NCBI GenBank assembly: GCA_035048485.1
Contig: CM068583.1
Coordinates: 22,667,341 to 22,731,340 of the forward strand
Length of the DNA stretch: 64,000 bases
Reading direction: 5' to 3'
Source: Pteria penguin
Taxonomy: Eukaryota > Mollusca > Bivalvia > Pterioida > Pteriidae
The position numbers and the translations under genes were made by a program. Shown piece by piece: positions 19,322 through 46,400 of the stretch. Under the pieces are notes generated by a model that did no database searches, was not told the origin of the DNA, and was given only the letters and a program-made list of their open reading frames with translations. How positions within the stretch are numbered: position 1 is the stretch's first letter; each line of letters begins with the position of its first letter.

Positions 19322-22300
19322 TCACTCTTGTAACATATGCAATAGTTCCCAATCCTTTTTGGAAAAATTCACTTTTCTTAGGTCTTTATTTAGTAAATTT
19401 GCATGACTGCATATACTATTGTGCAAATCTGTTTCAGTCGTTTCAATCAACTGTGATGCATACAAAATAAGAAATCTATATGATGCACTCTGATTGGTTA
19501 ATATTGGATATGGTTGGGATAAATTCAAACATTTCCGTAAAGACAGAAGTCTGTCAAGAACTTGTTCATAATTAACCTGTTCTTCAGTCTGCTGAACAAA
19601 TACAGATGATGAATTTGTGGTATCCATATGGTCTTCATTTCCTTGTAAGCCTCCTATAAATTGTTCAGGATGGGTAATATAACACAAAGTTTGGGATCGA
19701 AAAGATTGTGAATGTTCATGTTCAGGTTTGTCTTGTTGGCCGTCATTCTGTGCTCCTCTAAATTTTACATAACTCTCTGAAACAAAAAAATTGTTCAGTC
19801 ATAATTGCTTCATTGAAACAGGTCATTATATTTCGTAAACATTTTGAAACTTACAGCTCTTTGGCTTATAGGAAAAAGATCCACTTGTAATAAAACACAA
19901 ACACTCAGTTACATAAATTTTCATTATGTTTTCTGAGTGTATGTGTTTTATTACTCATACTGGACATCCCTTTGGAGAACTTTGAAAATTCTATTGATAC
20001 ATTTGTGATCATGAAACACTTATGCTTTTGGACAGTAGTAAATACTGAGTTTTTGAAAAGTATGTGTATGTCAAAGGTCACAATCAAGGCTGCAAAGTCA
20101 TACACATGGGTTACAACAAAAAGGTATTGTCATCAGGAATACAAATGTCCTATATCTTATAGTTCAAATGTTATGATCAGTGTTTAAAGTTTTTTTGCCC
20201 ATAACAAACAGACAGACCAAAAACTATAACAAACATACAGACCAAAAACTATGACAAACACACAGACCAAAAACCATAGCAAACAGAGACCAAAAACTAT
20301 AACAAACAGACAGACCAAACACCATAACAAACAGACAGACCAAACACCATAACAAACAGACAGACCAAAAACCATAACAAACAGACAGACCAAAAACTAT
20401 AACTCAGAAAAGATGAGTTTACAGAGAAAATAAATTCTGACTTAAATTCATTGTATGATGCTTATAAAATAGAAAATAAATTCTGACTTTAATTCATTGT
20501 ATGATGCTTATAAACTAGAAAATAAACTCTGACTTTAATTCATTGTATGATGCTTATAAAATAGAAAATAAATTCTGACTTTTATTCATTGTATGATGCT
20601 AATAAAATAGAAAATAAATTCTGACTTTAATTCATTGTATGATGCTTATAAAATAGAAAATAAATTCTGACTTTTATTCATTGTATGATGCTAATAAAAT
20701 AGAAAATAAATTCTGACTTTAATTCATTGTATGATGCTTATAAAATAGAAAATAAATTCTGACTTTAATTCATTGTATGATGCTTATAAACTAGAAAATA
20801 AACTCTGACTTTAATTCATTGTATGATGCTTATAAAATAGAAAATAAATTCTGATTTTTATTCATTGTATGATGCTTATAAAATAGAAAATAAATTCTGA
20901 CTTTAATTCATTGTATGATGCTTATAAAATAGAAAATAAATTCTGACTTTAATTCATTGTATGATGCTTATAAAATAGAAAATAAATTCTGACTTTAATT
21001 CATTGTATGATGCTAATAAAATAGAAAATAAATTCTGACTTTAATTCATTGTATGATGCTAATAAAATAGAAAATAAATTCTGACTTTAATTCATTGTAT
21101 GATGAGTATAAAATGCAATGTCAGTTTCCTACCTCAAACTCTCACAAGTAATGATCAATATTAAAGTGTTTTTGCCACATACAAACAAAGTGGCCAAAAA
21201 CTGCACGCCCAAAAATAAAATAGTTATGAGAGCAAATAACATTTAAAAATAAAGGTAACATTTTAATTATCTTACCTTGATCTTTCTCTAGCATTCTCTG
21301 TTCTAGTTGCTTTAAAGGTTGAAGTATAGCATGAATCAAATCTGGATTCTGTGATTTAGTCTTTTTATTTCCTAAAAATAAGAACCTCATATATGTTGTC
21401 AAATTCATTATGATATAGTAGGCCTATATATTACATGTAATATACATCCTTAAATCAAAAGTCTAAAGGACAAGGGTCAGTAATCCCCACTTCCAGCCTA
21501 ATGGTTTTTTTTTTTATATCTGACTTTGCTAAAGGATACATTTAAATTTTTGTCTCTATGAATATCTGCTCAATGACATATGTTTGAAAATTAATTCCCT
21601 TCTCTAAAATTTATGTAATATGAAGTATAAAGGCAACATCATCAGAACACTGATCTTGTATAAACTGACAGAGCTTCATTAAAATCAATTTATGATCAAA
21701 TACTTATTCGAAAATTCAAGTGCTGAATACCAGGTTTTGGAAGGGTTTGACCTTTGTTCACAATAAAAAAAGGTTTTATCATTGCATAATGTTATGAATA
21801 TTAAATTTCTAATTTCCCTTGTGAATATGAATATCGCAGGATCAGTGCATCATGCATCAAAGTACAGGAATATCAATACTCAAACTACTTACTCAGTGGT
21901 GCTTTTGAAACTTCCTTCTGCCCAAGTCTAACTTGTTGTAGAAACTGTGTTATATCTTTTACTTGATTTGGATTACTAAAGTAAATAATATACATTTTAT
22001 TTCATGATGGGTATGATTTTAAAGCTATGATTTGGAAGTGTTAGTATGTAATTTTCATACAGATTCATAATTTCTACTTTTCTAAGGTTAAGTTACAGAA
22101 TGATTTATCTTTGTTTGATGTTTACGTCACATGATACTGACGACAGTCTGATACTGCAGTACATGTGGCTAAGTTAGCAAAGCATTTTTGTGGTAAGTGA
22201 AGTACCCTAGGTTTAAGTGATTGAGACTGACTCTCACCAATCCCTTCTGTCTAAGAAAGAACTGTGACCCGACATAATAAGCAACTGAGAGAGAGAATGT

Positions 22301-25300: not shown

Positions 25301-28300
25301 GAAGTAATCTCTATATATTGATGATAGTCTTTAAAAAAATCAAGTCCAGCGGGGAATCTCTTGGCAATACATGACTGGTCCTTTACGTTTTCCATCTCAC
25401 ATTTCTTCCCAAAACAGGGACTTGTCAGCAATTCATATGACATTGATTGATAGACAGATTGTTTTACATCATTCCACAATTCGTTCATGTATATAGGGAC
25501 AGCATCTGTCTGATGCATTGCATAGAAATTAACATCTTTGCAATGGTCCCATCTAGAGCAGTGATGAATCTTTTACGTGCCAAATTAGCCATGACACAAG
25601 ACCTCGGTTTTCACGATCTCACACTGGTGTACCACAACTGTAGTCAAACGTGATTTCCAGATGAGCATCTAATCCACATCCGCCCAGATAATATAAATTA
25701 AATGACCTTATTCACTGGTTGGTAGATTGAATCATATGTAGTCATGGAGACTTGACTGCCCAATGGAAACTTTAGACTGATTGACTGAATACTGTTTTAT
25801 GTCACTCCACGATAATTTCACGTATATGTTGACGACATTTGCCTGATGCATTGCATAGAAATTTAGACCTTTGCAATGAACCCACCTGAAGCAGTGAGGG
25901 ATCTTATATGTACCACGCCTACTGTGACATGGGACCTCCGTTTTTACTGTCACATCCAAAAGACAGAACACCGGTAAGGCCCAGGCTTGGAGTCGAACTC
26001 GGGACCTCTTGATCATGAGCCGAGAACCTTATCCACTAGACCACACCAGCTTAACTTTAAACAATGCCATGTCACAATAAGCTCTTGCATCCATAACAAC
26101 TTCAACTGCACCAATTTAGTCTATTGTGCAGTGTTAATTTTTATCTATTGATTATCATCATAGTGAAATGAAATACTGTGGATTTTATAATTGGAGAAAA
26201 ACCAACAAATGAATTACAAATAAGGATAGTTATTCATCAATACCATAAGCTTTGTTGGAAATGAAATGACTGTTTGTGAGATTTCTTTTTTTGTGACTTA
26301 CAAGGAAGTTCCATTTTTATGAGGAACTTATTCATCAAGAGGGAAACAGGAGCCTGATGTCTGGTTATTCCGACAGGAAGATCCAAGAATCTTGCCAGAT
26401 TACTGGTCACATCTAAAAATCTGGATATCTTTGGTTTCTAGAAACATAATCAGATAGAAAATAATAATAAAGACAAGCAATAATAATTTGAAGTGACACA
26501 CTGAATAAAAGGTAATTAAAGGTGACTTTTTCTGTGGAGCCAATAATGTTTTGATAAATTTTCAGGAACATTTATAAATTTACAAATAATATTTTGATTA
26601 ATGAATTTAAATTCATAATCTCAATAAAATGATTAAAGCATTTAAGATGTATGTACATGTATATGTACAACATTTTGGTCAATTCACCATCACATATATA
26701 TTTTGCTTACACTGAATGAAGTATACCTACAAATGAGCAACATGAGCCAAATGTATTCCAATCATATACACTGAACTTCATGTCTGCAGGCAGCAATTTG
26801 GTAGCTTTGTAGTATGGAATCTTACACTCAGACACCCATCTGAAATTTAATGAAATATTAGCTAAAACTAAGAAAAATACTGGAGGTTATATTACTTTTG
26901 TAGCACCATTGTCAGTATTAACAGTATTGATTATGACCTTCCTCTCTATAGAAGCTGAGTTTGTAGAAGATGACCGATCCCATCAGAAGCTCCTTTTTGT
27001 TTGTAGTTTAAAGTCAAAGGGTGCTCAATCTTAACCTCATTTGAAAACCGTAATTTATGGATTATAGGTCGACATTTCAATGCTAGAAGAAGTCTCCTTG
27101 ACTTATACAGTGCTGCCACTTGAATATGGCATAAATTATGACTTGACTTTTGCACTAAATTGGTGAAGGGAAGCAAGGATCAAAATGCTATTATTGATAT
27201 TTGTTTGTGGGAAAAAAATAAATTATCTGTTCAAAGGAATTACTGCATGTTTAATCCTTTGGATATATTTCTGACTGATAATTGTAATCATATCTATACA
27301 TGATATTATCTTTCCATAATAACTTTTATTATTATTACTGTGGTGTATACTAATAAATATTGTATTGTATATGTGAATTCCAGCTTAAGTCTCTTTATTT
27401 GGTTAACACAAAGAAACCAATGATAAATGTTTGCCACTAATATTTCTTGTTTTTTGCTTGTACATTATATAAGTGACAAAAACTTGACTCTGATGCAATG
27501 GTATCACATGTTCATGTTGATAAATTCACCTGAGTGAGTTAAATCACAGATAATGCTATTACACCAGGAAGCATATTTGTGAGTATTCTATCTATAAGGT
27601 GACAGCTGATATCACAGGTAATCCAAAATGCAATAACTGTCCATTACAATAATAGAGATCATACTGACTACTGAAAGTCAATGTACTTTCCTTTAATTGC
27701 AATAAAAAGGTTCGAAACCTAACATAAATAAGTAGTCCAACTACATAATACTGCCCTTATACAAGTATGGTAGCTCTTTGACTTATACACCTGATTTCAA
27801 GCCGCTCATTCTATACATCGAATTGACTTATAGTCTGAAATACAATTGGTCTTGCAAGTGAAGCATGCATACCAATTATCATGTCTCAAATTACTTTAAA
27901 GCTACAGGCAAAATGAAGTTTGTGACAAAATAAAAATATGGCCACTGATCTCTAAATCAAGGCATATCAAAATGAACAGAAAGGAACATAAAAGTGACTG
28001 CCTAGAACAGGTGGCTGTTATGATAGGTGTGTCTGTAACTTCTGTGAATTATGGATCTTACAATGTCTGAAAGGAGAATTACAAAATTACTCACTGTACA
28101 ATGTCTAATGGAGATTTACGTACCGTACTATGTCTGATGTAAAATTATGTACCGTACAATGTCTGATGTAGAATTACATAACGTACAATGTCTGATGTAA
28201 AATTACGTACTGTACAATGTCTGATGAAGAATTACGTACCGTACAATGTCTGATGTAAAATTACGTACTGTACAATGTCTGATGTAAAATTACTTACCGT

Positions 28301-31300
28301 ACAATGTCTGATGTAAAATTACGTACCATACAATGTCTGATGTAGAATTACATAACGTACAATGTCTGATGTAAAATTATGTACCGTACAATATCTGATG
28401 GAGAATTACATACCACAGAATGTCTGATAGAGAATTACGTACCGTACAATGTCTGATGTAAAATTACGTACCGTACAATTTCTGATGTAGAATTACATAC
28501 CATACAACGTCTGATGGAGAATTACATACCAAAGAATGTCTGATGAAGAATTATGTATTGCATAATGTCTGATGGAGAATTACTGATGTACAATGTCTAA
28601 TGTAAAATAACATAATGTACGATGTCTGATGGAGAATTACTGACCGTACAATGTCTGATGGAGAAACCATACTCTTGCAGTAAATCAAGCCAATGTAGCA
28701 GAAACATAATGTCTTCAACATGAACATACTTTTAACCTGAAAAAGAGGAATGTAAATATGTAAAACAGGATAGAAAGTGATAAATTACTTTGAGAAACAT
28801 GAAGTGAAGAAAGGATTGTATTGCTCCTTTGAATATTCGTTTTACTGTAGTTTTGTGTTATCTTTATATACATCAATAAAATAAAGTAAGTTGGTGGTCA
28901 TTCTTCGCAATACCCCCCCCCCCCCCTGCCCCCTTTTTTTACTTTTATAATATACACTGCACTGCATAAGTACCCTCTCATTTTTTGCTGCAGTTAAATA
29001 CAACAAAAATCATTTCTAAATATAATGGTTGATGATTATAATTAATGATGATTAAAATTGAAAACAGCAATTTTTGAAATGCAGATCAAAGGTCACAGTC
29101 AAGGCTACAAGGTTAATAAATAAGTGGAGTGGAGTATGCATGCCAAATATGAAGTCTCTATCTCTTACGGTTCAAAAGTTATGGTAAATAGGGTAAATTT
29201 TGAAATGTAGGTCAAAGAAAATGGTCAAAGTCACAAGGTCAATGACCTTGGTGTAATTTGAAAAGGTCTTTATTAGTGGAGTATGCATGCCAAATAAGTA
29301 GTCTCTATCTCGCAGATCAAAAGTTATGGAAAAGGTTAAAGCTGATAACAGACAGACAGACAGACAAACAGGTCAAAAACAATATGTCCCCGATCTATTA
29401 ATCTGGGGAAATATAAATACCAAGAACACATACTTTTCATTGCAACATTATACAAATTTTAAGTTGGCTATATCATTAATTTTTGCTGCTGCATCAGGAT
29501 TCATGCACACAAAGGGTGACATACAATGCCACAATGATGGAAGAGAACACAGGACCTACAAACTGTTGCTAAGTATATTGGTGGCCCTTCCTACTTGTCC
29601 TGAACTGAGATGGTACCTTACTATATGAGATCAGAGGCTACAGTGAGTTCCAGTGCAGCATTTTAGTCCACTCACCCATGGAAGTCCAAACTGCTTAATG
29701 TTCCATTGAATCCATGAAAAGTCCATTAACAAGCTAAATAAAACTTTGAATTACATCATAATAGACTTGTAACTAAATCTATTTCATAAATTATTTCAAA
29801 TGTCAAACCACAGTGTAATAATTTCTACAAACCTCAGAATATTTCTTATCTCCCTTCATGTTTCTTGCCCCATCTTCGACTCGTGTTTGCGTCCTTCCTT
29901 TGCTTTCTCCTTGGTAATCACTTCTTTCACCACCATCTGCCGCTTCCTCCTCCACTGGATATTCCTCATCCTCACTTACTGGGTTATCCTCATCATAGAA
30001 TTCCTCTCCCATCAACGAAGCTTGCAAATCCTGTTTGTTCTTAAACGAAGAAATATCTTGAAATCAACTACTTTCCGTAAAAAAAACCCACAAAAAACAC
30101 CGAAAGAAGGGAGTGGCTGATTATCATCATTTATTGCTATATGTTGGTAGGTCTCTCTAAGCTAGAGCAATAAGCCATATTTTACTGACGCTACTTATCT
30201 CTGTCTCCAGACAATCTGGCTTCTTTAACTTCTATACACTGGCTGCCACCATAAAGGTGACATGATCCTGATATGATATTTTACAGTTAAAATTCACATT
30301 TATGCATTGTTGGCAATACATGCTCAATTTTGATTCTCTTAAGAAGAACTGAGACCTAGAGTGAGTTTCTAATGATGATGCTGAACAAATGTTTTGGTTT
30401 CCTCAGCAGCAGCAGCATTTTGACAATTTTAACTTACAATAAATCTAAACTAAAGTAATTTAACATTGAGTGTGAAAAAATAAAAAATAAAAAATTGGAT
30501 ACTCTCTGACTGGCATTATTATACACTGGTCTGTTTATAAGGATGATAAGTCTGATAACTGAAACATTGAAGTTTCAAAACCCGAACTTAAATTAATTCT
30601 GTCACTTAATATCAACTAAATTATTTTTCAATTAATCTTTAAAGAGGTCTTCTATTTTTCAAATTGTTTATGATCTGAACAAATTAAACAAAATTCTTTC
30701 ATATATAAAATAGATATACAATGACAATTTTGAAGAGGATTAACAAATATGTTTTACAATTATTTATGAAATGAGCTAATGTTTTATGTGAAAGGGATTT
30801 TAAGAATTTCTTCACGTGAAACTCCTAAAAGCAAAATGGGTAGCAGTGTTTATTTTTCTTCAAATCAGATACATTATAAGGACCCTTCCCAATGGAAATT
30901 TCATTGATTTTTCCCCAAATTTCTCAAATTTTTTCTCAAACATTGATCTTTCAGCATTATGCAAATGGAATAAAAATTCCCAACTGAAATGGTACAGGGA
31001 CCTTTAAAAACAAAAACAAAAAAGCACTGGGCAGATCAAACCTTACATGGTCACTGATCTTCAGACATTAGGCAAGACAACAGATGTCTTAACAATAGAC
31101 TCTCATCAAGAGTTTTTCCGATCTTTTTACAGAGAATCATACTAACATGTTTCCCATCAGGAGGAAATCCATGATTTTTTCTCCAGGTCTCTCTGAATTC
31201 CTTGGAATCTATCTGTGGATTACTGATGGTACCAGGATACTTTTCCCTAAAAAATAAATGCTTCAATCAATCATATCCTTTACCTTAAAAAAAATCAAAC

Positions 31301-34300
31301 GCTTCTCAAGTTTAACAAGTTTGACATTTTTAAGCAGTTGTTATGTTTCATTGATAATGTTAGTCTATTGACCCAAATATTCTCTACAATTTTTAATAAA
31401 TTCATGATTCAGTAATAAACTTTATATCTGTGTTCATATCTCTAAACCATTAACTATACGAAAAGAGAAACCACACAAACCAATTCTTCCAGAAGGAAGG
31501 CCATATATAAGTAAAAAGATTTAAAATTCAATTTATCAACATTTTTAGCCACTTGGCCTGTATCAAGTGAAAAGAAGGATATTGCTATAAATGCTTTGAA
31601 CAAAATATTAGTACAAGTTCAATTTTTGAATTGATTCTTGAATTTATGCTGATACTTTTTAAGTTTGGATGTATTGTACAAAGCTTTAATACTGACATGG
31701 TCATTTTCTCTTGACAAAGGCAAAGAGGCCAAAACTTTGTGATATAAGTGCTTAGTCTTCTTATTTATAATAAAAGAGAACTGAAATCATTTGTTAATTT
31801 ACCGATGTCTCTGTAAGTAAACAATATCAAGGTTTTCGGGAAATGCTACTCCAGTTTTGTGCAGAAAATTGCACCATAATCTAAACACTACATCCTGTAA
31901 AAAACGAGAATGCAGCTGTTATCAATTTCCAAGTATATCATATATCTGTCTCAAAATGTAATTCTCAGTTTGCAATAACATGCATCGATCACTATTACAT
32001 GGTTATTTTTCTCTATGGTGAAGGTAACAAGAATGTCCAGGAAGAGTCACCATCTTCATCAGATATACTGACAGTTCTTACCAATAGTGCTGACCAGAAA
32101 ATGAAGGGTTTTCATAGAAGAGAGAGAGACTGAAATAAATTCAAGTGAGTTGCATTAGACACCTTGGCCACTATGGTCAATGCATTTGTAGATATAGCTA
32201 GTGGAAGGTGTGAATCATTTTTACATGTGTTACAGTATAAGGTAGATACTAGTCATTTTCTTATCCATTATTACAGAAAAAACACATGTGTATTAGCCAA
32301 ACTACTCAGCCATTTTTGGTGCCAAATCTGGATTTTTACTAGTAAATATGTGGTGAAAGGGGGGGGGGGAGCCCTGGGTCCCCTCTAAGTCCACCACTGA
32401 AAAGCACACTAAGGTCACCACATCAGAATCTTTTGTATCAATGGAAAGATTCTGTCATAGGAAAAACTTGTGTAAAATATCAAAGCTTAATCTATGCAGA
32501 CAGATGGACAGACGGAAAGACAGAGGAGATAAATGCTATGTCCCCAGATCACGCTGATCAGGAGTCTAAAAATGTATTACGTCTATGCTAATAGTTTACA
32601 TGGTCTCAGAAAGTGGAATCTGGCTTAAAGTTTATAGTAAAAGTCACGTAACCATATACATTGAAGATAGAATTAAAACAAAAGTATGAATGTAATTTGT
32701 ACATTTATGTTTGGCAGCAGTTTTCCAGTTTACTTCTAGCTGCATGGCTATGTATAATGATCTCATTCTATCATGTGTCTGTAATTGTATGGTTGATTTA
32801 GGTGCTCATTCACAGTACAACATATTTACATATTTATAGTGAATCACTACGGAACTGTAAAGTTGTCCATGCTATAAAGAGTTTGTTATATGCATATAAT
32901 GAATTTTACTGATGAATGAAAAATACTTTGTATAAACAATACTTCGTATAAACAAGAGATACCACTCCCTGGTATATAGCTACCTGCATTCCCCCTCAGG
33001 TTGATACAGTAACCTTTTGTTTAAAAATATGTTCTTTCTAGTTGTGCAGTTTTAAAGTACTTGAAACAATCTACAAGTAACCAAAAAAGCAATTGTCAAG
33101 ATATACCACACGTCCGGATTTACCTTCCAGACCACTAACTTGTTGGAAATCCAGTGATTCTATAGAAATATTAATACCTTCAGTTTTGGATCTGCCCCTA
33201 ATTTTATAAAGGTTTTCACTTGTTCCAGAAGTATGATCTGAAATGCCTCATAGGTATGCCAAGGTCGTCCTTTATCTAAAACTAAGGATTTAATACAAAT
33301 TACTCAGAAAGACTACAGAGAAAACTTGAGAATTATATATGTTTTCTGCACCATGAAAAATGTATTTATTCCAAAACAAAAAGACAATTTGTTGATACTT
33401 TATATAAGAAAAACTATCAAAATTTTCTAGATCTGTATTAAATATTTTAAACATGACTGTATACCTGTTACAGTTTTGATATCTTAGGATGAATTTCAGT
33501 ATCAGAGTTTTAAAATTGTTGAAAAGAAATGGTTAAATTTATGCAAATATTCTGATGATTGAATTCTCAATAAAATAAAATTCATAATAGTTTCAAAATT
33601 AATTCTTGGTCTTCATTTTATTATTACCATATAAATGTACTATGAAATTTCATCCTGAAACAGAAATCTTTGAAATGATTTCAATTTTTGATAATACTTA
33701 TACATGTGTAACAATTTGAAGACTATTTAGATATATATATATATATACTGTACCCTCTTTCTCTTTTTTGTGTGATGATTTGACCTTCACCTGTAACCTC
33801 ACATTAAAGTTTGTAACATATTCGCTGTCTTCTTCCTCTACTCTGATATCCTAAAATATTATTTTGGCATTAAAGATTACAAAAACATTAAAAGTGATAA
33901 AATATATCCTAACTTATAAATTAAATAAAAGTGGTTTTTACCCAAGATATATCACAAATGCAACTTTATTTTGATATATTCTGAATCATTATAAAGATAA
34001 AACTAAGATGAAATTGAGCAGCATCTAAATTTAAAACAAAAAAGTTAAATTTAGTTTTACCTTTTATATTTTCTATGAAATAAGGAAGGCACATACTACT
34101 CATCTGAACAACTTGAGGACATGAGAAACTTGGAAATTATAAGAATGTTCTCAAATAAGAGTCTCCTTTTTAGAAATTTTATTTCAAACTGAACCAAAAG
34201 AGAATGCTATTATTCTAAAACATTTTCATATATTGTGAAAATAAATAAAAACCTCCTGAAAATGTGTAGAAATGACAAAGTAATAAAGAGTCAAAACTTA

Positions 34301-35961
34301 ATTTTGGAACTGAACCTAAAACAACAATTCTTATGAAATCTTTATAGATCACTCTGATGCATTCTGTTTGTTGATCTATGCAGTCAATCTAAAGATGTTT
34401 GTAAAATGAGAATATCCCCAGGAGCAAATTGCTCCTCCCTGGATCCATCCTTTGATGGATCCAGCAGAAAAATATCAATACTTTTAGGGGATGTTGAATA
34501 CTTCATCAATACCAAGTTTCATCAAAATCTCTTCATTGCATGTAATTCTGAAGGAGAAGTTCATAAAAGCTTACTGTCCGTGCCACTCACTTTGTAAATC
34601 GAAAAATCTGGATTTTCACTTATTAATCTTTAAAATAGTTTTACAAAATTAATATCAATCAACAGATCTTGTATAGTCGTAACTTCTGGTGTATGTTATA
34701 TGTTTCTACAAAGAAGCATTCGTATTTTATAGGGAAAAATCATTTTAGATAGGGCGTTTTCTATGTTAATTCTGACGTGACGTAGCCGATGTTTAACATT
34801 GAGTCTATGGAAAACTTGGCGACGTCACGTCAAAATTTAACATGGAAATCGCCCTATCTAAAATGGATTTTTTTCTATAAAATATGAACGCTTCTTCATA
34901 CAAACATATAGCATACACCAAAAATTACGACTAAACAAGATATATCGAATGGTTTTGCCTTTTTGAAGTTATTCTGAAGATGAATAACTGAAAATCCAGA
35001 TTTTCCAGTTTCCAGAGTGAGTGGCGCGGACAGTAGTATTTCATTATTACATTTCCACAGCATTATAACATCAACAACAACAACAACATTCCCCCAACCC
35101 TTCCAACTCTTCTTTTTTGAATCTTAAGAGAATTGCAATAACTCCTAGAATTTACCTTTTTTGTATACCATTTCTTTCAATTTACATTTATTTCAACAGA
35201 AACAGTTAAAATACATAAAATTAAGGCATTATAAGTAACCTACAAGGAGAAAAAATCCCGGCTAAAAATCATCTGAAAATGGGCAAAAATGACAAAGTCC
35301 AAAAAAGAATTAATAACAAAAACATTAAAAAATTGGATTTCTACAGTAATCAAAAGAAAATCAACAACACTTTTTAAGACATCCTTCTAGATCACTCTAA
35401 CGCATTTGGAATTTTGATGTATGAAGCCAGTGTGATGAGGCTTGGCAAAGGAGAGTACCCTCTGTGGCCTATGTCACTCTGCCATGGATCCATCCCTTGA
35501 TGGATCTGGCTAAAATTTAACAACATTTCATCTCTACCAAGTTCTCAAGAAGAAGTAGAAAGTATAAAAGATTTATGTCAGATAAACAGATGAACACCAG
35601 ACAAAGAACGATCACAATCAGTTTGGGTCCAAAGTCGAAGGAGCTACTATGGCTTGATTGAGCTATTTTCTCTTGTTCTGGATATATCCAGTACATCCTG
35701 ATATGAACATAGACCAGATCAGGATATCAGTTTCCAGATCAGGCAAATAATTATAGCCTGATCAGGATATACATTCTATAACCAGATCAACTTTGGACCC
35801 AACCTGACTCATTTGAGCCTAAGTAGGCTCAAGCGAGCTAGAAATACTTGAAATCTGGACTGATATCTTCTAATTACCTGAGACTGTGTAAGGCAAGTTG
35901 TACAAAAGAAATGACCATCACTTTCATCAAATTCATCTCCATGACATACCTCACAAAACAT
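19322..35961 (-). CDS. TAF1B: TAF1B, RNA polymerase I SL1/TIF-IB subunit
   Basis: TAF1B bridges SL1 and RNA polymerase I at rRNA gene promoters and has a TFIIB-like architecture. Coding exons, in order on the minus strand: 35972-35878, 33850-33754, 33275-33178, 31894-31803, 31246-about 31055, 30030-about 29833, 29733-29676, 28736-28645, 26839-26731, 26437-26302, 25036-24865, 24566-24520, 23689-23602, 21975-21893, 21371-21276 and 19776-19322. Most join in consistent phase. The joins around exons 5/6 and 6/7 do not fit, so a small exon or another splice site is missing there. Diagnostic parts are an N-terminal zinc ribbon (C-x2-C-x13-C-x2-C, in CEVCHGDEFDESDGHFFCTTC minus its last residue), GRPWHTYEAFQIILLEQV, an acidic linker (VSEDEEYPVEEEAA), WVSECKIPYYKATKLLP, and IILTIQLLFALDDYTEK. 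The ATG at 35961 is chosen because it lies just before the ribbon. Length is about 698 residues, against roughly 590 in human, and the extra is in the linker and C terminus. Confidence 0.92.
19887..19954. repeat. Inverted repeat in the last TAF1B intron
   Basis: GTAATAAAACACAAACACTCAG minus two bases at the left pairs with CTGAGTGTATGTGTTTTATT at the right around a short AT-rich loop. Confidence 0.75.
20200..20400. repeat. 24-bp tandem repeat
   Basis: About eight copies of a unit like ACAAACAGACAGACCAAAAA with small variations. The same words occur singly at 29345-29385, suggesting that a dispersed repeat seeded the array. It lies in the last TAF1B intron. Confidence 0.9.
20427..21113. repeat. 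46-bp tandem repeat, about 15 copies
   Basis: The unit holds TTCTGACTTTAATTCATTG and ATGATGCTTATAAAATAG. The copies differ at one to three positions, and a two-unit pattern of variants recurs, which suggests growth by multi-unit duplication. It lies in the last TAF1B intron. Confidence 0.95.
23364..23441. mobile_element. 78-bp foldback element with 9-10 bp target duplication
   Basis: The arms run from CATCGTGTGAACCCCCGTCT to its inverse counterpart ending GGTTCACATGATG. The exact direct repeat GCATAGTGTC flanks it (23354-23363 and 23442-23451). The terminal bases match the element at 9570-9640, so the two are one family. It lies in a TAF1B intron. Confidence 0.9.
25480..25680 (-). mobile_element. 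SINE family B fragment
   Basis: Contains the body words of family B (ACCTCGGTTTTCACGATCTC, 'gcatctgtctgatgcattgcatagaaatt') without an intact tRNA-like head. It lies directly before a fuller copy at 25772. Confidence 0.6.
25772..26050 (-). mobile_element. SINE family B, nearly full length
   Basis: Runs from the 'gactgattgactgaatactg' tail to the tRNA-like head (AGCTGGTGTGGTCTAGTGGA on the minus strand, with a B box GAGTTCGACTCC). It lies in the TAF1B intron between exons 25036 and 26302. Confidence 0.8.
28060..28665. repeat. 29-bp minisatellite made of a TAF1B splice-donor region
   Basis: About 21 copies of a 29-bp unit. The outermost copy (28645-28665) is the end of the TAF1B exon itself. 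On the minus strand each unit reads roughly CATCAGACATTGTACG, then GTACGTAATTTTA. The first 17 bases equal the exon end, which encodes PSDIVR, and the other 12 equal the start of the intron. Individual copies have GTACGT, GTAAGT, GTATGT, GTGAGT or GTCAGT at the donor position. Confidence 0.93.
28905..28926. repeat. C homopolymer tract
   Basis: An almost pure run of C in a TAF1B intron. Confidence 0.9.
29040..29390. repeat. Dispersed repeat with TGACC-type words
   Basis: Two imperfect copies of a roughly 130-base stretch carrying 'gcatgccaaatatgaagtctctatctct' (written in parts in the text) and 'caaggtcaatgacc' occur in tandem, ending in a GACA microsatellite and 'aacaatatgtcccc'. The same phrases recur at 45360-45540 and 51300-51480. 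Confidence 0.6.
32285..32400. mobile_element. Truncated copy of the CAGTGGCGGAT element
   Basis: Shares 'tgtgtattagccaaactactcagcc' and 'ggatttttactagtaaatatgtgg' with 3690-3760, including the position of the G run, and ends in 'ccaccactg'. It lies in a TAF1B intron. Confidence 0.75.
34574..35033. mobile_element. 460-bp palindromic MITE with TA target duplication
   Basis: The ends CTGTCCGTGCCACTCAC and GTGAGTGGCGCGGACAG are inverse complements with one mismatch. TA flanks both ends (34572-34573 and 35034-35035). Inner arms also pair (TTTTAGATAGGGCG with CGCCCTATCTAAAA), so almost the whole element can fold on itself. TA duplication is the mark of Tc1/mariner-type transposition. It lies in the first TAF1B intron seen. 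Confidence 0.9.
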
Positions 35962-36292
35962 GCTCTTGATTCCTATATAATTATAGAATGGTATAAGAGT
36001 ATCAAGTAGAATATATATGCACGTACTTGACTGTTTATTCTAGGTAGTAAGCAATGTTTAATTTTATACTTTGTGACCATATGGTGGTAGAATAGTAAGC
36101 AATGTAATTAAAGCCTTTAAACCTACTCACAGTAAGACTGGGACAAATACCTCCATTGCAAAATGGTACACTGCAATTTGGCAAGATAACTTTGAGTATA
36201 TGCAAACTGTTTAGTTTGAAATGGCTGTTTTAAAGTAATAGAGAACTACCCCCCTTTATTTTGTAAGGCTATCTATTTGATAATATGTATAC

Positions 36293-36323
<31 letters not shown>

Positions 36324-37009
36324 CATGGAAGTTTTGTGAGAAAATGGCTTGATAAAATGAATAATTAGGGATTTTTAAAATTAGCCTAACAGGTGATTGT
36401 GACTGTCATTCCATTTATTGAGTGCAATGACCAAGTTTCGTTCGGAAAAATTTTCCCCCACAAAATGTTTGTAAACATATGCCCTCACATGGGCTTAATA
36501 TATAGCAGCAACAAAGTTTTCCTAAATTATAAGTTTTTTGGGCCATAACTCCTATAAATATTATCAGTGGTGACCTTGCCTTTTGACATATTGACATTCA
36601 AATCTATAAGGCGTCCTTCCCTATTGATAAAATTTTAAATTACCTCTGTTTAAAAGAACTTGAGCTGTAAAATATGTGAAATATAATCAAATTCTGATGA
36701 GCAGTTAATGATGTTTGATAATACATGAAAATCACCTAGAAACCAATAATTTCAGTCCTTCCTATCAGCTGTGATCTTGACCTTTGACCTTTTGACCCCA
36801 AAATCAATAGGATTCTTCCTCTCGTGATAAGTAAACACAGACTTCTTGAAAACTTTTGAAACCTATCAGACATTCAGTCTGACAAATTGATGAATCTTGT
36901 CAGACCAAACAAAATTTTGTCAGACCGAATTTTTTTTTTCACAATATTTAAAGGAGATAGTGAAATACATTATGAAGTTGAACACAAGTGGAGTCAAATG
37001 CCTTTGAAT

Positions 37010-37201
37010 TTAATCATACTCCATTTCATATTCATTTTCTCGAATTATCAATTCCATTTGCTTATCATTTTCGTCCTCGGATTGTTCATTGTCACTTTCA
37101 CTCTCATCATCATAATCATCAACATCACTCCACTTGTCCTGCTCCACATTTTCATCCGTCCTAACGGCCCTATCTTCTCCCAGCTGCTCTTCTTCTCGCA
37201 T
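37010..37201 (-). CDS. Unassigned acidic open frame
   Basis: A 63-residue frame on the minus strand, about 45% Asp/Glu (for example DDYDDESESDNEQSEDEND). It lies upstream of the first recognised TAF1B exon and downstream of a second short frame (37424-37269). An acceptor-like TTGCAG sits just before it. It could be an exon of a longer TAF1B 5' region, part of another gene, or a remnant. Its phase does not fit either neighbour as I read them. I do not recognise the product. Confidence 0.25.
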   Translation of the reverse strand: MREEEQLGEDRAVRTDENVEQDKWSDVDDYDDESESDNEQSEDENDKQMELIIRENEYEMEYD

Positions 37202-37268
37202 CTCATCTGCAACATCTCCAGTTCATTCTCATCCTCATCCCCCTTTCATCATCATGCATCAGCCATGG

Positions 37269-37424
37269 TCACCCTGCTTTCCAGTTCTCTTTAAACGATC
37301 GTACTCTATTATCCTCATACTTTAAATTTTTTGCGGTCGTTTCGACATTACTAGGAACTGTATATTTTCGCTTTCTTCCCGGTTTTGCCAATGCTACATA
37401 TTTTATGGGCCAGGACGCGGCCAT
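37269..37424 (-). CDS. Unassigned 51-residue open frame
   Basis: A minus-strand frame starts at AAAATGGCC, a good initiation context that also resembles a YY1 site in a small CpG-richer patch. It encodes MAASWPIKYVALAKPGRKRK and onward to KENWKAG before TGA. The 'EDNRVRSFKENW' stretch is weakly reminiscent of the N termini of ZBED/hAT-derived proteins. It may be the true first exon of a minus-strand gene (its GCAGG|GTGACC end could be a donor) or a retained transposase fragment. Confidence 0.25.
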   Translation of the reverse strand: MAASWPIKYVALAKPGRKRKYTVPSNVETTAKNLKYEDNRVRSFKENWKAG

Positions 37425-39885
37425 TTTGACCTTCACGTGATACACTGATCTTAATATTACAAACGCTTAATCAAGATCAAGTGAAGTCATAAGCGTTTGG
37501 GCAACTACAACAGGATGGACTGAACTAGTCCGAGTCGGAACGGTACAGAACATCCGAAATAATCGTGTCGGACAGGATGGGGATTTCTGTCGGACATCTG
37601 ATATTTTTATCGGCAAAACCGATAAAACTGACACTTTTCAGGAACTCTGTAAGTATATAACCAAATTTAGTCTTAATATAATGAAAGGTACTTGAGTAAT
37701 CATCCAGAAACCAAACATAACAGTCTATTTTCGTCAGCTTTGACCTTTGACTTTTTGACCCTCAAAATTATAAGGTTCTTTCCGTCTTGATACATAAACA
37801 TACATCAAAAATTGGTTGAGTATGATGAAAGGTGCTTAGTTATCATCCGAAAACCAATAATTACAGTCTATTTTTGTTAGCTGTGACCTTGACCTTTGAC
37901 CATTTGACCCCCAAATTCAATAGGGTTCTTCCTCTCCATTCTATTTTCCATTTTCGTCAGCTGTGCAGGGATCGGAAAGGTCATGCGCCCTGCGACACAG
38001 TCCCATTCAGATCGAAAATGGCGCATTAAACCACTTACTCCATGCGCCTTATTGCACATTAAAATTTCGAAGCAGCGAACATTGATTCCGCAATGTGCGT
38101 TTTCAGTTTTTGACATTAGTGTCTTCGTAATATCTGGTTTGATAAAGACGCATGATTTACAGCGATACGATCTTAACGGTGCTCCCGAAAACGATCCCCA
38201 AAGCCTATCCAAAGCGCTTTAAAAAGCTTAGCTTCCAGTCAGTTATTGCCTCTTTCTCTGACATTAGCGCTAGTGGTAGTTTTAGTGAAGTTGCATGTAC
38301 TCCCCAATCAGCTGATCTTGAAAAATGGCCGGACCAGTAGCCCGATTTACTAACAGTCGTAGACGTTAATCGTAACCGTAAATCAGGTATCTACGAGGTC
38401 AAAGTTCTACGCGTTCCTACTTCACAAAAATGCCCTTTCACATCATAATGAATTGACGCAACGTACGCGTAACGAATTGTAAAAATTTGACCAAGTCAGC
38501 GTAAGTCTGTGTATATTTGCTGGCATACATTGTACGCTCTGCGCATCACTTGTGTATGTTCTTTGTATGATATGCGTATGCTGTGCGTATGTTATACAAA
38601 TTGAAATACATCACATGCCATCTTTCAGTGACTATTTCCACATCCATTCATAACACTTTTATATAATCACCGATATTTCAGACTATAAGGTCAAAGCATA
38701 AAAACTCACAGTTAGGATACAGTCTGTGTGTTGACAGTGTGGTAAGCGTACACTACGCGGATGTTACTCATTTGTTTAACATATGGTGCAAGTTTGCAGT
38801 GGAAACGCCAATGATACACATATATCAAATATGCAATGCATACATCAAGAATTTTGTGCATGCACAGGATTTCTCGACGTACGGAACGAGCTGCGAGGTA
38901 CCAGTGCATACAACTACCAACTCAAAACACTTGCGTAACGTTCTCCCGACAGCATATGACAGCGAGTGCTAAAATTTCGCCATAGCAGACATACATATTT
39001 CTAATTCGTTATAGAGTGAAAGCCACATAACTTGGGTTTACACTTATGATTTTCAGTGAAACGCAGTTTTATCGTGTTCAACTACGTTTACAGTACGGGT
39101 TTACCAAAGATTGTTAGTGAAACAGGCTACAGGCACCAAAAGATCATGGTTCTATGTAAAATAAAAGTGTTGGTGAGAAATTGTTCAGAATCAGAATTGA
39201 TGGCAAATTAAGGACTTCTCAACCACAATTCTGTTAACTCATTGCAGAATTTCATAACAAAAACGTATAATTAAATCACACTGAATTTCCCTTCTCTGTT
39301 GAACAGATTTGTTATTGTTGTCCTGTCCCCTGAATTACTCAATAGTTACATCTGATAAATATGACACAAAATACAACTTTGCAAAAATTGCATTTTCTAA
39401 ATGTCCCTTTTGTAGTGAAAGATGGCCCATAGAAATTGAAAATGGCCCACTGAAGTCTGAGGAAAGAAGGCCATAGTCCCAATGATGAGTTTGCCTTCCC
39501 GATCACTGGCTGTGACCTTGATCCTTGGACCCTCAAATCAATATCAAAGTATATATCCAAATTTGGTTTGAATATGATTGATGATAGGTATACTTAAGTT
39601 ATCATTTGGAAATCTATTATTACAGACTATTTTCATCAGCTGTGACCTTGACCTTTGAACCCTAAATAAATAGGGTTCCTCCTTTCTTGATAAGTAAGCA
39701 TATATCAAGATTTGGTTTAAATATGTAGAAAGTTACTTGACTTATTATCTGGAAAACTATACGTGACGGGAGAGCCGAAGGACGGACAAAACAAACACTT
39801 ATGCCCCCTGCCATACTTGGCGGGGGCATATAATGAGTGATCGTCAATTGCCCCACATCACACATTTTGGCACACTTTTTTATTA

Positions 39886-39893
39886 TGACGTCA
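39886..39893 (+). promoter_or_regulatory. Perfect CRE octamer TGACGTCA
   Basis: It is 556 bases before the AUP1 start codon. A second one lies 42 bases further on. CREB/ATF proteins bind this octamer. Use in vivo is inferred. Confidence 0.5.
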
Positions 39894-39927
39894 TAAATAA
39901 TTGGCCCGTCAAACATTATTTTAACTA

Positions 39928-39935
39928 TGACGTCA
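39928..39935 (+). promoter_or_regulatory. Second CRE octamer TGACGTCA
   Basis: Identical to the first. It is followed within 20 bases by CTACGTGATGG, an ACGTG core of the kind bound by ATF6 and XBP1. Confidence 0.5.
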
Positions 39936-40448
39936 CAATGGAGCTACGTGATGGGCGTGGTTAAATTTGGATCTGGCGATCCTTCAATTACCGTTTCAAT
40001 AGAAAGTAGCCGTTCCTCTGTTTATCTGTGCCTCTTCTGCACGTATTGAACTTTTGCTAAGCAGTAAGCGCTGCAACTTCGTAAAAGTATCATTCAAAAT
40101 TGTGTAATGATATACCGATATTCATCGAGAATTTTCATTAATATGCGAAAGTTGCGGTTACACTTTCTACTTTCTTTTTCATTGCAGTGTCTACTTTCAT
40201 TTTGTTTTTTCTTTTTGGTGTATTCGTAAAGAATTTTCGTCAAATCCACAAATAAATTTAATTAATCTCACTCTATGTGTGGAATGCAAGTACTGATTAA
40301 CGTAATATTGTAGTACATTAAATATTACGATGGAAATTATAATACTGAATATACAAAAATAAGTGACTTTACATAAAATAATCTATATCTTTATTACGAA
40401 ATAGCTTTGATACGAAGTGGATAGTTTATTGAACTCGAGAGTTAAAAC

Positions 40449-43400
40449 ATGGACTCTATTTTTGATAAAAACAGGTATCTTAAAGCTGTTTGTTGTGAAT
40501 ATATTTATTTTTAGTCGTTCATCCATATCTGTTAATCAGAATTTATAGGTATACCTCTCTAACCTCTCTCTACAGGTGTCAAGTTTCATGTGAATCTTAA
40601 TTCTACTGTATAAATGGCTACTGTTATCCATTTCATTCAGTCAATCAGTGTGTAGTGCATTATGCTGATCATGCCTGGTTGGACAACATTTAGGCAACTT
40701 GACTACCATTATTCTGTGGTCTCTGTTTCTGCGTGGTAGTCACCACAGTTAACAGACTGGCTAGTCTAAGGCCAGTAAGGGAGCCAGGTACACTACAGAG
40801 GACGGCTTGTCCAGTTGTCATATCATTACCGCTAATAATCACCATGATCCTAGCTCTTTAATTGACCTATAGATTACGAGGAATCACCGCAACGATCACG
40901 GGAAATCACCGCAGCATCGCGGGCATTTCGCAGTGACCCTACTTCATGTATATACATTATGTAAACGCATACGTAAACCATGGTGAAATATTTTTTTAAA
41001 TACTTATTGAGTATGGTCAACATTCAGTTAAGCAAATAATGTAAGTTTTAATAAAATTTAGAACAGAATCCTGCTATTAATGATTTCAGTACATCGTCTG
41101 TAGCACAAGACTTCTGAATTCAAATGCCCTACACTAAATTAGTGACTAATTATTGCCTCGGGTGATATTTCTTATCAGCTTTATATTTTCGCATAAAAAT
41201 GCAAAAGGGATCTAAAGACAAGTACCTGCATTATAAAATAACAAAAAGGCAAACAAAAATGAATAACTTTCGATGATTTTGTTTGTAGAAAGACCATAGT
41301 TTACTTTGACGACAATTTGATTAAAAGCATTTCTGTTTATTCTGTATTTGCTGCATATACGTAGTTAATATGGAATAAACAGCAGTGCTTTTAATCTGAT
41401 TGCTTCTTGCAGTTGTGAAATCATGAGAGAAATTGTATTTTGCAATGATGATTTTAATAAATCTAAAACTAAAGGTCTATGCCACGGAAATGTTCCCAGA
41501 ATCGAACTTGAAACATATTGTCGCTTTCATAGTGTACTATGAGTCATAAAACTTAATCTTATGAATATTGACCCCCTTTTCTTTTCAAAACCTTCATATA
41601 AAGTGAAGATAAATCTTGAGACTTAACCCGCACTTAATATGGTGCATATTGGGTCATGTTACCAAACTGACTTTGAGAATTCACAGCTGTCTTTTTCCTT
41701 TGCAAATATCAAAAACATTGTTACAACGTGTGTTTAGTTAGCTGTTTGTGAGCCAACACATGAAAAATGAATGAATGTAATTGACAATCAATCTGTCCTT
41801 TGTAGGCTTCCCACACACAATACATAATATATATCATAACTCCAGAACATTTTTAAGCTAATTGTTACTGTAACCTTGAAGAACTTTATGTAAAATTTTG
41901 TTGATAATGATATATTTTGTATTAATCACTGGATTTTGTAATAAAACTTCTCAAGGGCAGATTCAGATTTTGTTGTCAGCAGTGTGAGTTTAAAATAGTC
42001 TGGACTATCTACTCTGATTGTTACTGTGTTAAAAACAAGTAGATATATATATACCTGATTATCTTATTTCATTGTAGATGTTCCAACAAAACATCGAAAA
42101 TTTTATCTATTCTCTACTTTCCATTTGGAATCGCGCTAGTGATAATTCGAATATTTATCACTCTTCACGCATTATTGGTAGCCTGCATTCTTCCAAAATC
42201 ATCAATCACTAGGTAAGTGGAGATACTTAAATCAGCAATCACTAGGTAGGTAGTTACAGTACAGTCCAGGTGGAACTTAATTTGCCCACTTGTCACAGTG
42301 GGCATTCTTAGAGTGGGCATAAAAAATGTTCACTGGACACAGTGGACATTCTTGTAAGAGTCAGTTAGAATTAACATACAGGTAAATGGACTGCTTGATA
42401 GCTCAGGTAAATGTCCACTCCTAATGCCCACTGAAATTTCAGGTGGACTGCCCCCCAGGGCAGTGGGCATTCAAAGTTCCACCCGGACTGTACTGTATAC
42501 CAAAATCAGCAATCACTAGTTAGGTGGTAATACCAAAAACAGCAATAACTAGGTAGGTGGAGTTCCAAAATCAACAATCTCTAGGTAGGTGGAGTTACCG
42601 AAATCAATCACTAGGTAGTTGGAGTTACCGAAATCAACAAAATCAGAAATCACTAGAAAGGTTGAGTTACCAAAATCAACAATCACTAGGTAGGTGGAGT
42701 TACCAAAATCAGAGATCACTAGGTAGTTGGAGTTACCGAAATCAACAAAATCAGAAATCACTAGAAAGGTTGAGTTACCAAAATCAACAATCACTAGGTA
42801 GGTGGAGTTACCAAAATCAGAGATCACTAGGTAGGTGGAGTTACCAAAATCAGCAATCATTAGGTAGGTGGAGATACCAAAATCAGCAATCACTAGGTAG
42901 GTGGAGGTACCAAAATCAGCAATCACTAGGTAGATAGAGGTAAAAGCATCAGTAATCACTAGGTAGGTTATAATACCAAAGTCAACAATTACTACATGTA
43001 GGTAAGTAGAGATCAATGTCTTGTGTGCAGTAATAAAATAATTTATAATTTACATGTGTGTGTTGTGAAAATTTATTTTCAGCAATGTTCATTGATATGC
43101 TGTGAAAATGTGCAGATGTATATATATAGTATACATGTACATGATGAACTAGTAACTTTATATTGTATGTACTTCAACATGAACATTAGTCTTTTACACT
43201 GACTGTCCTTAACACTTTACATCTGAGATTTTGCTAGCAAATACAAATAGTGTTTTATGAAATTGTTTGTTAATGCCTGACATCACACTGGTTGGCACAC
43301 TTCCATTATGATGTCATAAATAAATGGCTTGTCAAGCTTGAATATAATTGTGATAATGAATATCATAATGAAACTTCATTTTGGCCTTAGTGAAATAATG

Positions 43401-46400
43401 TGGTGGTCCTTCTTTTACTGCCAATACTTGAAGAGAGTTCAGTTAACTGATATTTACATTGTTATTTACTCATTAACAACACAAGTGACTTGATATATAG
43501 TAATGCATATAAATATGGAACCGCGCTCTCTTTTTTTTCAATCGGACAAAATCTAATATAACATGCTTAAGAAAAATATTCAGATTTGTTCTACGTATAC
43601 TGTATATCCATTTTCTACAGAAACAACTTTTTCCTAACATTTCGGATGCTTTATTGCATTGTCATTTTGAAAATTATCTTTCCAAAATGTATTTTGTATG
43701 AGTAATTTTTCTCCATAGCCTCATTTTGAAGAATATATTTGCGGTGATCGGGATCCAAGTTGTAGTCCAAGAAGATGAAAGGAAGGACAAGAATGCCAAA
43801 GTACTTGTCTCAAATCATGTGTCAAATCTAGATCACATGGTCATTGACTTTGTCATTCCCAATATTACAGTAAGACATTTTTATACATATATATACCATT
43901 TATGTTCAAAACAGAAATATTTTGGATAATTGTTAAAGGTATAAAATACTTTTTAAAAAATTAAATCTATGTAATTAATTAGAACATATTGGAAACTCTG
44001 TTCAAAAACAGTTATTTGGTAGAAAATCTCTGCAAAACTATTTACAGAATTAATATAATAAGCAAATGAAAGTACGTGTATTTATTGTTAATACTGATAA
44101 TGTCTGAGAGGGTAATTGAGTAGGATTACATACAAATTACATATCAAGAGTTTATTGGTTGTCTGAACTTTAAGATTATATTAAATGTATGAACATTTTT
44201 GCCTCAGCGTAAATTGAAAATTATTCTGACATAAATTCCACAGTAATTTAAACTAGAAATATGTTTGCTTTATGTATTGTACATGTACAATGTATGTACT
44301 AAGTGTATTTTTTGCTATACCTATAATTTAATTCTTGCTTTTTATAGTTTTGTAGATTTTATAGCTAAAACATTCAGTTCTTTCTGTTTACAGCCTGATA
44401 TGCTTGGATTTTCTCCCATGATGCAATGGTTGACAGGATTTAAAGATTTTGGTACTAGTCAGGGAGTCACTGTTTTACAAAATAACATCAGAACATTTGT
44501 ACGAGGTTAGGTTTTGTTTCACGTAAATGCCTGGTCAGTAGATCGGGAGCATCTTGTTTTTTTTTTTCGTTACTCTGTATGTTAGATGGTCTTGTAAGCA
44601 CCAAATTTTACCTGCTTTACATTGATAATTTATTAAGACGATTGTACATACTAAGTTGTGTACACCAGTCCTGGTTTATGTTTTTACCAATGTAGGCCTG
44701 ACATTAACAAAGATCTAGTGAAGTACCTATCCAATACTTTCTGATTTCAAACCTAAGTACAATCCAGTAACTCCAGTGTAACTGGTTTAGGTACATAATG
44801 ATCTGTATGAAAAGTTAAATACATGAAATATAAAGCATTCAATATGTAATATGTTTTTATTATAGAATCAAAACATCCTGTTCTGTTGCATCCCGAGAAA
44901 ACCACAACCAATGGTACAGCTCTACTGAAGTTCAGGTGAGTCATATGTTTACTTATCTCATTCATCATGTGTGCAAGGTTTCAATTTTCATGTTTAGGGG
45001 CAGGCTTGGTGTAGTGGTTAAGTGCTTGGCTTGCGGTGTCGACAATCTGGGTTCGATTCCGGATTGCGCCACTATGTTTAAGAGGTTGGTTACCTCCTGC
45101 TTTCATGTTGCAGTGTAATTGAAAAATTGTTGAACACCAATCAAACAACCAAAAATCAATTGTCATGTAATATTACAAAAGACACTGTGGATGAAGTAAT
45201 TGTCCATTGGAACAATGAATGAATTCATTTTAAGAATTATCTATTCTGTTCTCCTATTCTGTACATGTAGTTTGAAAAAATGATTGTGATATTAAGATTC
45301 TAACAGTAACAAACTAAAGTACTGTTTCCATAGTGCTTCTCATTTGAATATTATGTCATTAAAAGTCTTGATTTTTATGAACCCAGATCGAAAGATGGGG
45401 GCATATTGTTTTTGTCCTGTCTGTGTATTTGTCTGTCTGTCAGTAACTTTTACCTTGCCTGTAAATTTTGAAATGTTAAAGATAAAGACTCCATATTTGG
45501 TAAGTCTACTGCAATAAAGCCCTTTCAAATGACATCAATATCTGTGATCTTGACTGCGACCTTTAGTTTATATCCCTCCTGTTTTTTATGAAATTTCTTA
45601 AAGTTGTTGCAGAGTTATGGTATTTGTATGCTAAAAATAACCTTTTCTCAAGCTTTTATTGTCTATGTCTCATAATAACTGATGTTAGTTTTGAGAGATA
45701 TACATGATCTTGTAACACATTTAATATCCAGGCAGATTTTTGTTGCCATCTAGGGCATAGTGTTTCACAAACACATTTTGTGGAATATTCGTAAATTTCT
45801 CTTTTTTTTTTACAGTACTTTTCCTTTCACAATGGGACAAGTTCAGCCAGTGAGTATAGATGGTGTAAATCTAAAATGTTTAGTTCTAGATGTATTTTAA
45901 AATTGTGATTTTAACCTGTACATGGCTGAAAATTGTTTTTTCATAGCATCTATTTTCTTTCTTGTATTGATATTGATTTTTGATAAATAAAAGCTACATT
46001 ACAATATTCAGAGATTTATTGATCACCACTCTTGGCATACATCATTCAATGTACATATATTGAGAACATAAACAAAACCTTCAAAAGCAAATATGACTTA
46101 ATAAATAGAGGAGTTTTGAGATAGCAATCTAAATGCTCGACATTTTTCGAATTTTACGCGCTTCTCATGGCAAAGGTGGGACATGTTTAAATCTGTCTCT
46201 GTGTAAAGTTAATGACATGCTCTGTTAAAATGCTATAATATCAACAAATACACAAAGGACGATAATGAATGTTCAAATAGATTTAAAAAATAAACCTGAG
46301 AACCATTCGTTTCATAGTAAACTTTTCTATTTTTTTGGGGCTGGTTAGATCTTCAGTACAGTGGATCCCTGTGGAAAGTTGGCTTCTATAAAGAACTATG

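Follow-up and report, generated by a model that had tools for sequence, protein, structure and literature searches.

The 64,000-nucleotide window of the Pteria penguin genome analysed here (assembly GCA_035048485.1, contig CM068583.1, positions 22,667,341 to 22,731,340 of the forward strand; window positions count from its first letter) carries the genes AUP1, on the forward strand, and TAF1B, on the reverse strand, each of which has one intron that begins with a tandem array of copies of its own exon/intron junction. The genome assembly comprises 838,482,794 bases in 49 contigs. We traced AUP1 by spliced alignment with the AUP1 proteins of Pinctada imbricata (P0001) and Crassostrea virginica (P0004), and TAF1B with the TAF1B proteins of Mytilus (P0016) and Tegillarca (P0017) and with the TAF1B protein P0018. 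The alignments confirm both gene names of the original prediction, and the AUP1 protein pieced together from the window finds the best of its 15 matches in P. imbricata, at 59% identity. Twenty-four introns were taken from the two sets of alignments. The intron models diverge in less conserved parts; both array-bearing junctions are identical across all models used.

At each of the two loci the end of a coding exon is itself the first copy of the array. The AUP1 junction reads CAAAATCATCAATCACTAG/GTAAGTGGAGATAC (here and below the slash marks the exon/intron boundary); the first copy takes up the last 18–20 or so nucleotides of the exon and 16 more copies lie behind it, mostly of 33 bp and with a repeated 108-bp higher-order block. 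TAG/GT is present in 12 of these 16 copies. The TAF1B junction reads CTCCATCAGACATTGTACG/GTCAGTAATT, with about 19–21 exon nucleotides in the first copy, and the 29-bp string is then repeated 20 more times, the final copy (28047–28075) being degenerate; its consensus unit has ACG/GT and no AGGT. Tandem Repeats Finder (TRF) detects both arrays (AUP1, 42498–42968, 33 bp × 13.8, parts of it also reported with periods of 30, 66 and 108 bp; TAF1B, 28085–28665, 29 bp × 20.1) and homology sets both exactly on donors, those of two of the 24 homology-traced introns, so the two predicted arrays at splice donors are real. The first AUP1 copy encodes ...PKSSIT(S), identical in P0001 (KSSITS), and the first TAF1B copy encodes ...SPSDIV(R), where P0016 and P0017 have SDIIR. 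Since the first copies encode residues common to other bivalves, the array was derived from the exon.

Within the AUP1 array lies a 239-bp element with 22-bp terminal inverted repeats (CAGTACAGTCC...) that resembles a small mariner-type miniature inverted-repeat transposable element (MITE); because it sits inside the array, part of the array must be older than the insertion. A 49-bp piece of this element recurs at window positions 60902–60950 with 80% identity. Elsewhere in AUP1, the P. imbricata model P0001 lacks the segment encoded by window exons 45816–45849, 47041–47082 and 47262–47335, which P0004 has; this is possibly a gene-model error.

Among the exons compared, duplication of junction sequence is confined to these two donors and to their intron side. 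When 26 exons were compared with 1.5 kb on each side, only the array exons of AUP1 and TAF1B matched downstream with a score of at least 35, both matches lying exactly at the exon 3' end, and all other exon–flank comparisons scored 27 or less. This bears out the expectation that expansion went into the intron only. In a comparison of 24 donors and 24 acceptors of the two genes with 100 shuffles each, the two array donors score 53 and 48. Five further donors score 21–28, values equalled or exceeded by 0 to 4 of 100 shuffles (AUP1 47336, score 28, 0 shuffles; AUP1 43870, 22, 4; TAF1B 26710, 21, 0; TAF1B 24864, 21, 2; TAF1B 23601, 22, 4), and two acceptors score 25 and 24, each reached by one of 100 shuffles. 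We rejected these as further junction duplications because the matches are single, distant or very short and their scores are common outside the arrays, where background seeds score at least 28 in 25 of 1624 AUP1 cases and at least 21 in 289 of 1624 AUP1 and 524 of 2849 TAF1B cases.

Arrays seeded at donors recur elsewhere in the genome. We searched for three successive AGGTRAGT sites at spacings of 22–42 bases, a pattern that decayed copies or other periods escape, and obtained 1122 matches, with 23 distinct arrays among the matches listed (first 113.2 Mb). For this and all motifs below, distinct arrays were counted by eye among the first 100 or so places listed, on the first contigs only. 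All 23 were examined in part, the sequence at L037 and perhaps L050 stopping short of the array start. Six of the 23 strong-donor arrays start at a homology-proven coding exon (Table 1), which establishes donor-seeded arrays as recurrent and upholds the recurrence suggested for this genome. Three more (L040, L051 and L033) are exon-like but unproven, L040 giving RRM_1 at E 0.2 and nothing at 0.001, and no recognisable coding exon was seen at the remaining 14, several of them without a library search. This coding-exon check covered the donor-motif arrays only. As a gauge of coding potential, the length of open frame running up to the array edge gave no separation between 21 donor-motif arrays and 34 edges of other arrays (Mann–Whitney P 0.21).

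Over the eight cases (AUP1, TAF1B and the six further arrays) the period ranges from 25 to 39 bp, and the exon contributes between 1 and 37 nt of each unit. The common design of 17–20 exon plus 12–13 intron bases once proposed for AUP1 and TAF1B therefore does not extend to the group, and the likeness of their two seeds is probably coincidence. Break points that range this freely are as expected from random breakpoints, that is, from unguided duplication.

Table 1. Features of the window and donor-seeded arrays found at proven coding exons elsewhere in the genome
Feature	Position	Strand	Content and support	Exon share of unit
TAF1B coding exon	28645..28736	-	VKSMFMLKTLCFCYIGLIYCKSMVSPSDIV + split R codon; spliced alignment P0016/P0017/P0018, translation	
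TAF1B intron, phase 2, donor GTCAGT at 28644	26840..28644	-	Spliced alignment	
TAF1B donor-seeded minisatellite	28047..28665	-	Seed + 20 further 29-bp copies; TRF and copy count	21 nt
AUP1 coding exon	42078..42212	+	Ends ...LVACILPKSSIT + split S codon; 3' end from P0001/P0004 alignment, 5' end positioned visually at an AG	
AUP1 intron, phase 2, donor GTAAGT at 42213	42213..43718	+	Spliced alignment P0001/P0004	
AUP1 donor-seeded minisatellite	42194..43009	+	Seed + 16 further copies; TRF, copy count	18 nt
Element inside AUP1 array	42257..42495		239 bp, TA target duplication; terminal inverted repeats 21/22 match	
Donor-seeded array	L039		Thrombospondin type 1 (TSP1) domain, 8.8e-10	23 nt
Donor-seeded array	L042		IFT172, 6.4e-14	15 nt
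Donor-seeded array	L043		IFT56, 5.6e-13	11 nt
Donor-seeded array	L046		Leucine-rich repeat (LRR) protein, 1.6e-5	37 nt
Donor-seeded array	L035		ENPP, 1.9e-10	1 nt
Donor-seeded array	L047		EFL1, 4.3e-12	33 nt

The explanation we favour, with a probability of roughly 0.68, is that ordinary minisatellite seeding struck these donors and was tolerated since the first copy still splices. A short tandem duplication straddling the junction between a coding exon and its intron would seed the array, which may then lengthen by slippage or unequal exchange. With a very high rate of minisatellite birth in this genome, many donors would be hit by such ordinary seeding. The array would be close to neutral and its spare donors would decay, the first donor presumably still joining the next exon in vivo. 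Growth is seen on the intron side only, on this reading because the spliced mRNA is unchanged there, whereas expansion into coding sequence would harm the protein. Minisatellites of at least three copies are abundant: 26 occur in 20 regularly spaced 10-kb stretches from five contigs (0.13 per kb), a density at which many array edges should fall on donors by density alone, and six occur in the 64-kb window.

The strongest competitor holds that donors are true hot spots of minisatellite birth, a few times above other sequence, by way of transcription-linked breaks, R-loops or the self-similarity of AGGT and RAGT within the donor. We consider it unlikely, although both the two arrays among 24 traced introns and the six further proven cases fit it and several results count against ordinary seeding. 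First, when the four clear arrays in introns of the two genes were placed at random over 23,150 bases of intron, an overhang into exon of as much as 25 nt being allowed, two or more of the four straddled a donor in only 0.72% of 200,000 trials (P 0.0072), and any junction in 3.1% (0.031); the window itself is thus unusual, a result that is suggestive only because the observation was chosen after the fact. Second, arrays of the donor motif are denser than those of two shuffled control motifs of the same composition, clearly so for the first, TGARTGGA (846 genome matches; 26 distinct arrays among the matches listed, 237.2 Mb, simple repeats included) and the best-matched AGTRAGGT (1193 genome matches; 17 distinct arrays among the matches listed, 103.2 Mb). 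Arrays per Mb among the matches listed are 0.203 for the donor motif, 0.110 for TGARTGGA and 0.165 for AGTRAGGT, that is, donor/control ratios of 1.85 (1.06–3.25) and 1.23 (0.66–2.31). Per single site the excess over TGARTGGA rises to 4.63 (1.84–11.67), and per instance the excess over the pooled controls is 3.39 (1.43–8.03). Third, acceptor-motif arrays are rarer than donor-motif arrays (eight by eye among the matches listed, 132.3 Mb, 0.060 per Mb, after one dispersed repeat family that dominated the listing and one non-tandem match had been set aside), so donors and acceptors may be inequivalent. Fourth, the mean best donor score of 24 minisatellite units exceeds that of all 200 column-permuted matrices. 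Finally, by a donor matrix built from 20 other donors of the window, the authentic TAF1B donor (5.0) is outscored by 12 of its 20 further copies, which makes unaffected splicing less obvious.

Against AGTRAGGT, the motif of the same composition and near-equal frequency, the donor excess per single site is only 1.48 (0.52–4.22), no clear excess; arrays of the two motifs are about equally common, with 1122 donor-motif and 1193 AGTRAGGT matches over the whole genome, and on contig C1 the matches listed hold 16 donor-motif and 14 AGTRAGGT distinct arrays. The single-site ratios rest on 10 donor-motif, 25 TGARTGGA and 12 AGTRAGGT instances in 264 kb, and all ratio intervals assume Poisson counts and take the grouping of matches into arrays as certain. 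The comparison of donors with acceptors is weak because a run of T is part of the acceptor motif, whose reversed control is also rare (240 matches). Moreover, a difference in tolerance would suffice for the gap: copies that follow a donor do not disturb the first one, and copies ahead of an acceptor put new AGs between branch point and exon. The permuted-matrix test deserves little weight because permutation splits the GT pair; against random pieces of equal length, four of the 24 units reach P < 0.1 (mean P 0.41), no clear enrichment for donor-likeness. The counts from 264 kb and 113.2 Mb imply about 32,000 AGGTRAGT sites and about 170 arrays, such that about 0.5% of sites carry a strict array, and two of 24 donors, as in the window, does not look like a general rate.

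A modest donor-specific excess is therefore possible. The contention that arrays at donors are too frequent for chance stands for this window (P 0.0072); for the genome the two controls point apart, with a ratio of 1.48 to the best-matched one and of 4.63 to the other. Of the two processes originally suggested, tolerance of arrays seeded at junctions is favoured and a dedicated duplicating process is not established. We hold it doubtful that donors in this bivalve lineage, unlike acceptors, are preferred minisatellite birthplaces several-fold above other sequence, with expanding decoy-donor arrays next to coding exons in hundreds of genes.

Much less probable still is that the arrays are functional decoys or platforms for the U1 small nuclear ribonucleoprotein (snRNP), selected for exon inclusion, decay of mis-spliced mRNA or suppression of early polyadenylation. 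The donor GT is kept in 14 of the 20 further TAF1B copies and 12 of the 16 further AUP1 copies, every one of these GT-bearing copies (14 of 14 and 12 of 12) would introduce a premature stop if used, and in addition to the 12 TAF1B decoys that outscore their authentic donor, five of the 20 TAF1B copies are predicted to pair more stably than that donor with the U1 5' end (one of 16 in AUP1, marginally). However, the GT is not conserved above the rest of the unit in either array, its mean conservation across copies being 0.82 in TAF1B and 0.81 in AUP1, against 0.88 and 0.90 for the exon part and 0.87 and 0.83 for the remaining intron bases. None of the 16 AUP1 copies scores above 5.3 in the donor matrix, compared with 10.8 for the real donor, and in TAF1B the three copies nearest the authentic donor (28577–28634) have all lost the GT that 14 of the 17 beyond them keep, a pattern that decay at the array edge or selection against nearby decoys could produce. 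Since the GT is not better conserved and every GT-bearing decoy would truncate the protein, a selected U1 array is unlikely; the earlier proposal of U1 binding arrays finds no support in the GT values, and a tolerated decoy array would fit the copies better than a selected one. That the arrays mark introns newly made from tandem repeats with both splice sites in copies, as proposed for some human introns (PMC3443670), is scarcely credible here, because the acceptors do not match the units (shuffled sequences score at least as high as the two acceptor regions in 984 and 815 of 1000 cases) and the TAF1B unit lacks AGGT.

Several other repeats were recorded along the way. A search for arrays resembling that of TAF1B gave 12 further matches in the genome at 66–71% identity; TRF at seven of these loci (two pairs overlapping) found periods of 14, 28, 30 and 31 bp, and although locus L002 has 12 bases in common with the TAF1B unit (ACAATGTCTGAT), we take these arrays to be probably unrelated minisatellites. 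Within the window, two more minisatellites (25 bp and 46 bp) lie at 20199–21114 in the last traced TAF1B intron and show no junction seeding. Another at 1396–1680 (28 bp × 10.2) has a unit with CTGTCAG/GTACGA and a donor-like score of 7.8, a value that 4.8% of random pieces attain; an adjoining coding exon could not be demonstrated, and a noncoding first exon there is possible. One 685-codon open frame, containing leucine-rich repeats, occupies 13318–15375. Outside the window, one of the sampled stretches (L017, G000:C3:37000001-37010000) holds four minisatellites within 10 kb, one of them 35 bp × 41 with CAGGTAAGG in its consensus unit, and contigs C1 and C2 of the assembly carry a dispersed repeat with TTTTGCAGAGTTTTTCAGTGGCGTCAG-type subrepeats, often as inverted pairs about 3.6–5.7 kb apart, whose nearly identical copies look like a young DNA transposon.

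The eight loci amount to natural experiments: in each gene the authentic donor is followed, head to tail, by additional copies of its own donor region, from three to more than 20 of them. They offer a direct test of how the spliceosome chooses among near-identical donors in vivo and of how far repeats that span a junction are tolerated. Were the donor excess true, a mutational process linked to splice sites would be indicated, and if donors are indeed preferred birthplaces the arrays would keep generating differences in splice isoforms from one individual to the next.

Related arrangements have been described. Zhuo et al. (2007) reportedly found introns arising from tandem arrays in which both intron boundaries match the repeat; those arrays and ours are alike in being splice-site-bearing tandem arrays within genes and differ in that the acceptors here have no match. 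Tandem duplication across exon–intron boundaries is documented, as is its part in intron gain (PMC4974935, PMC3443670, PMC2891723), and so are minisatellites that alter gene structure (PMC2812944). In the potato RdRp gene one tandem duplication across an intron end and the next exon made a new intron (PMC4974935). Common to both is a tandem duplication that runs over an exon/intron boundary and so adds to the number of splice signals; here, in contrast, many donor-side copies lie inside an existing intron. The UBC gene has tandem AGGT dual-specific splice sites in repeats that are coding monomers, and these sites are used (PMC10809524). The AUP1 unit similarly repeats AG/GT about every 33 bp, whereas the TAF1B unit has ACG/GT, and the repeated sites here are putative. 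A literature search by title and the start of the abstract, which mostly did not cover subscription papers, found no donor-seeded minisatellites in bivalves. With minisatellites and intronic variable number tandem repeats (VNTRs) the arrays share head-to-tail units of 25–39 bp, with copy numbers from 4 to over 20 among the cases examined, the higher-order block of AUP1 and the decayed edges of both window arrays; what sets them apart is that the first copy belongs to a coding exon and holds a real splice donor.

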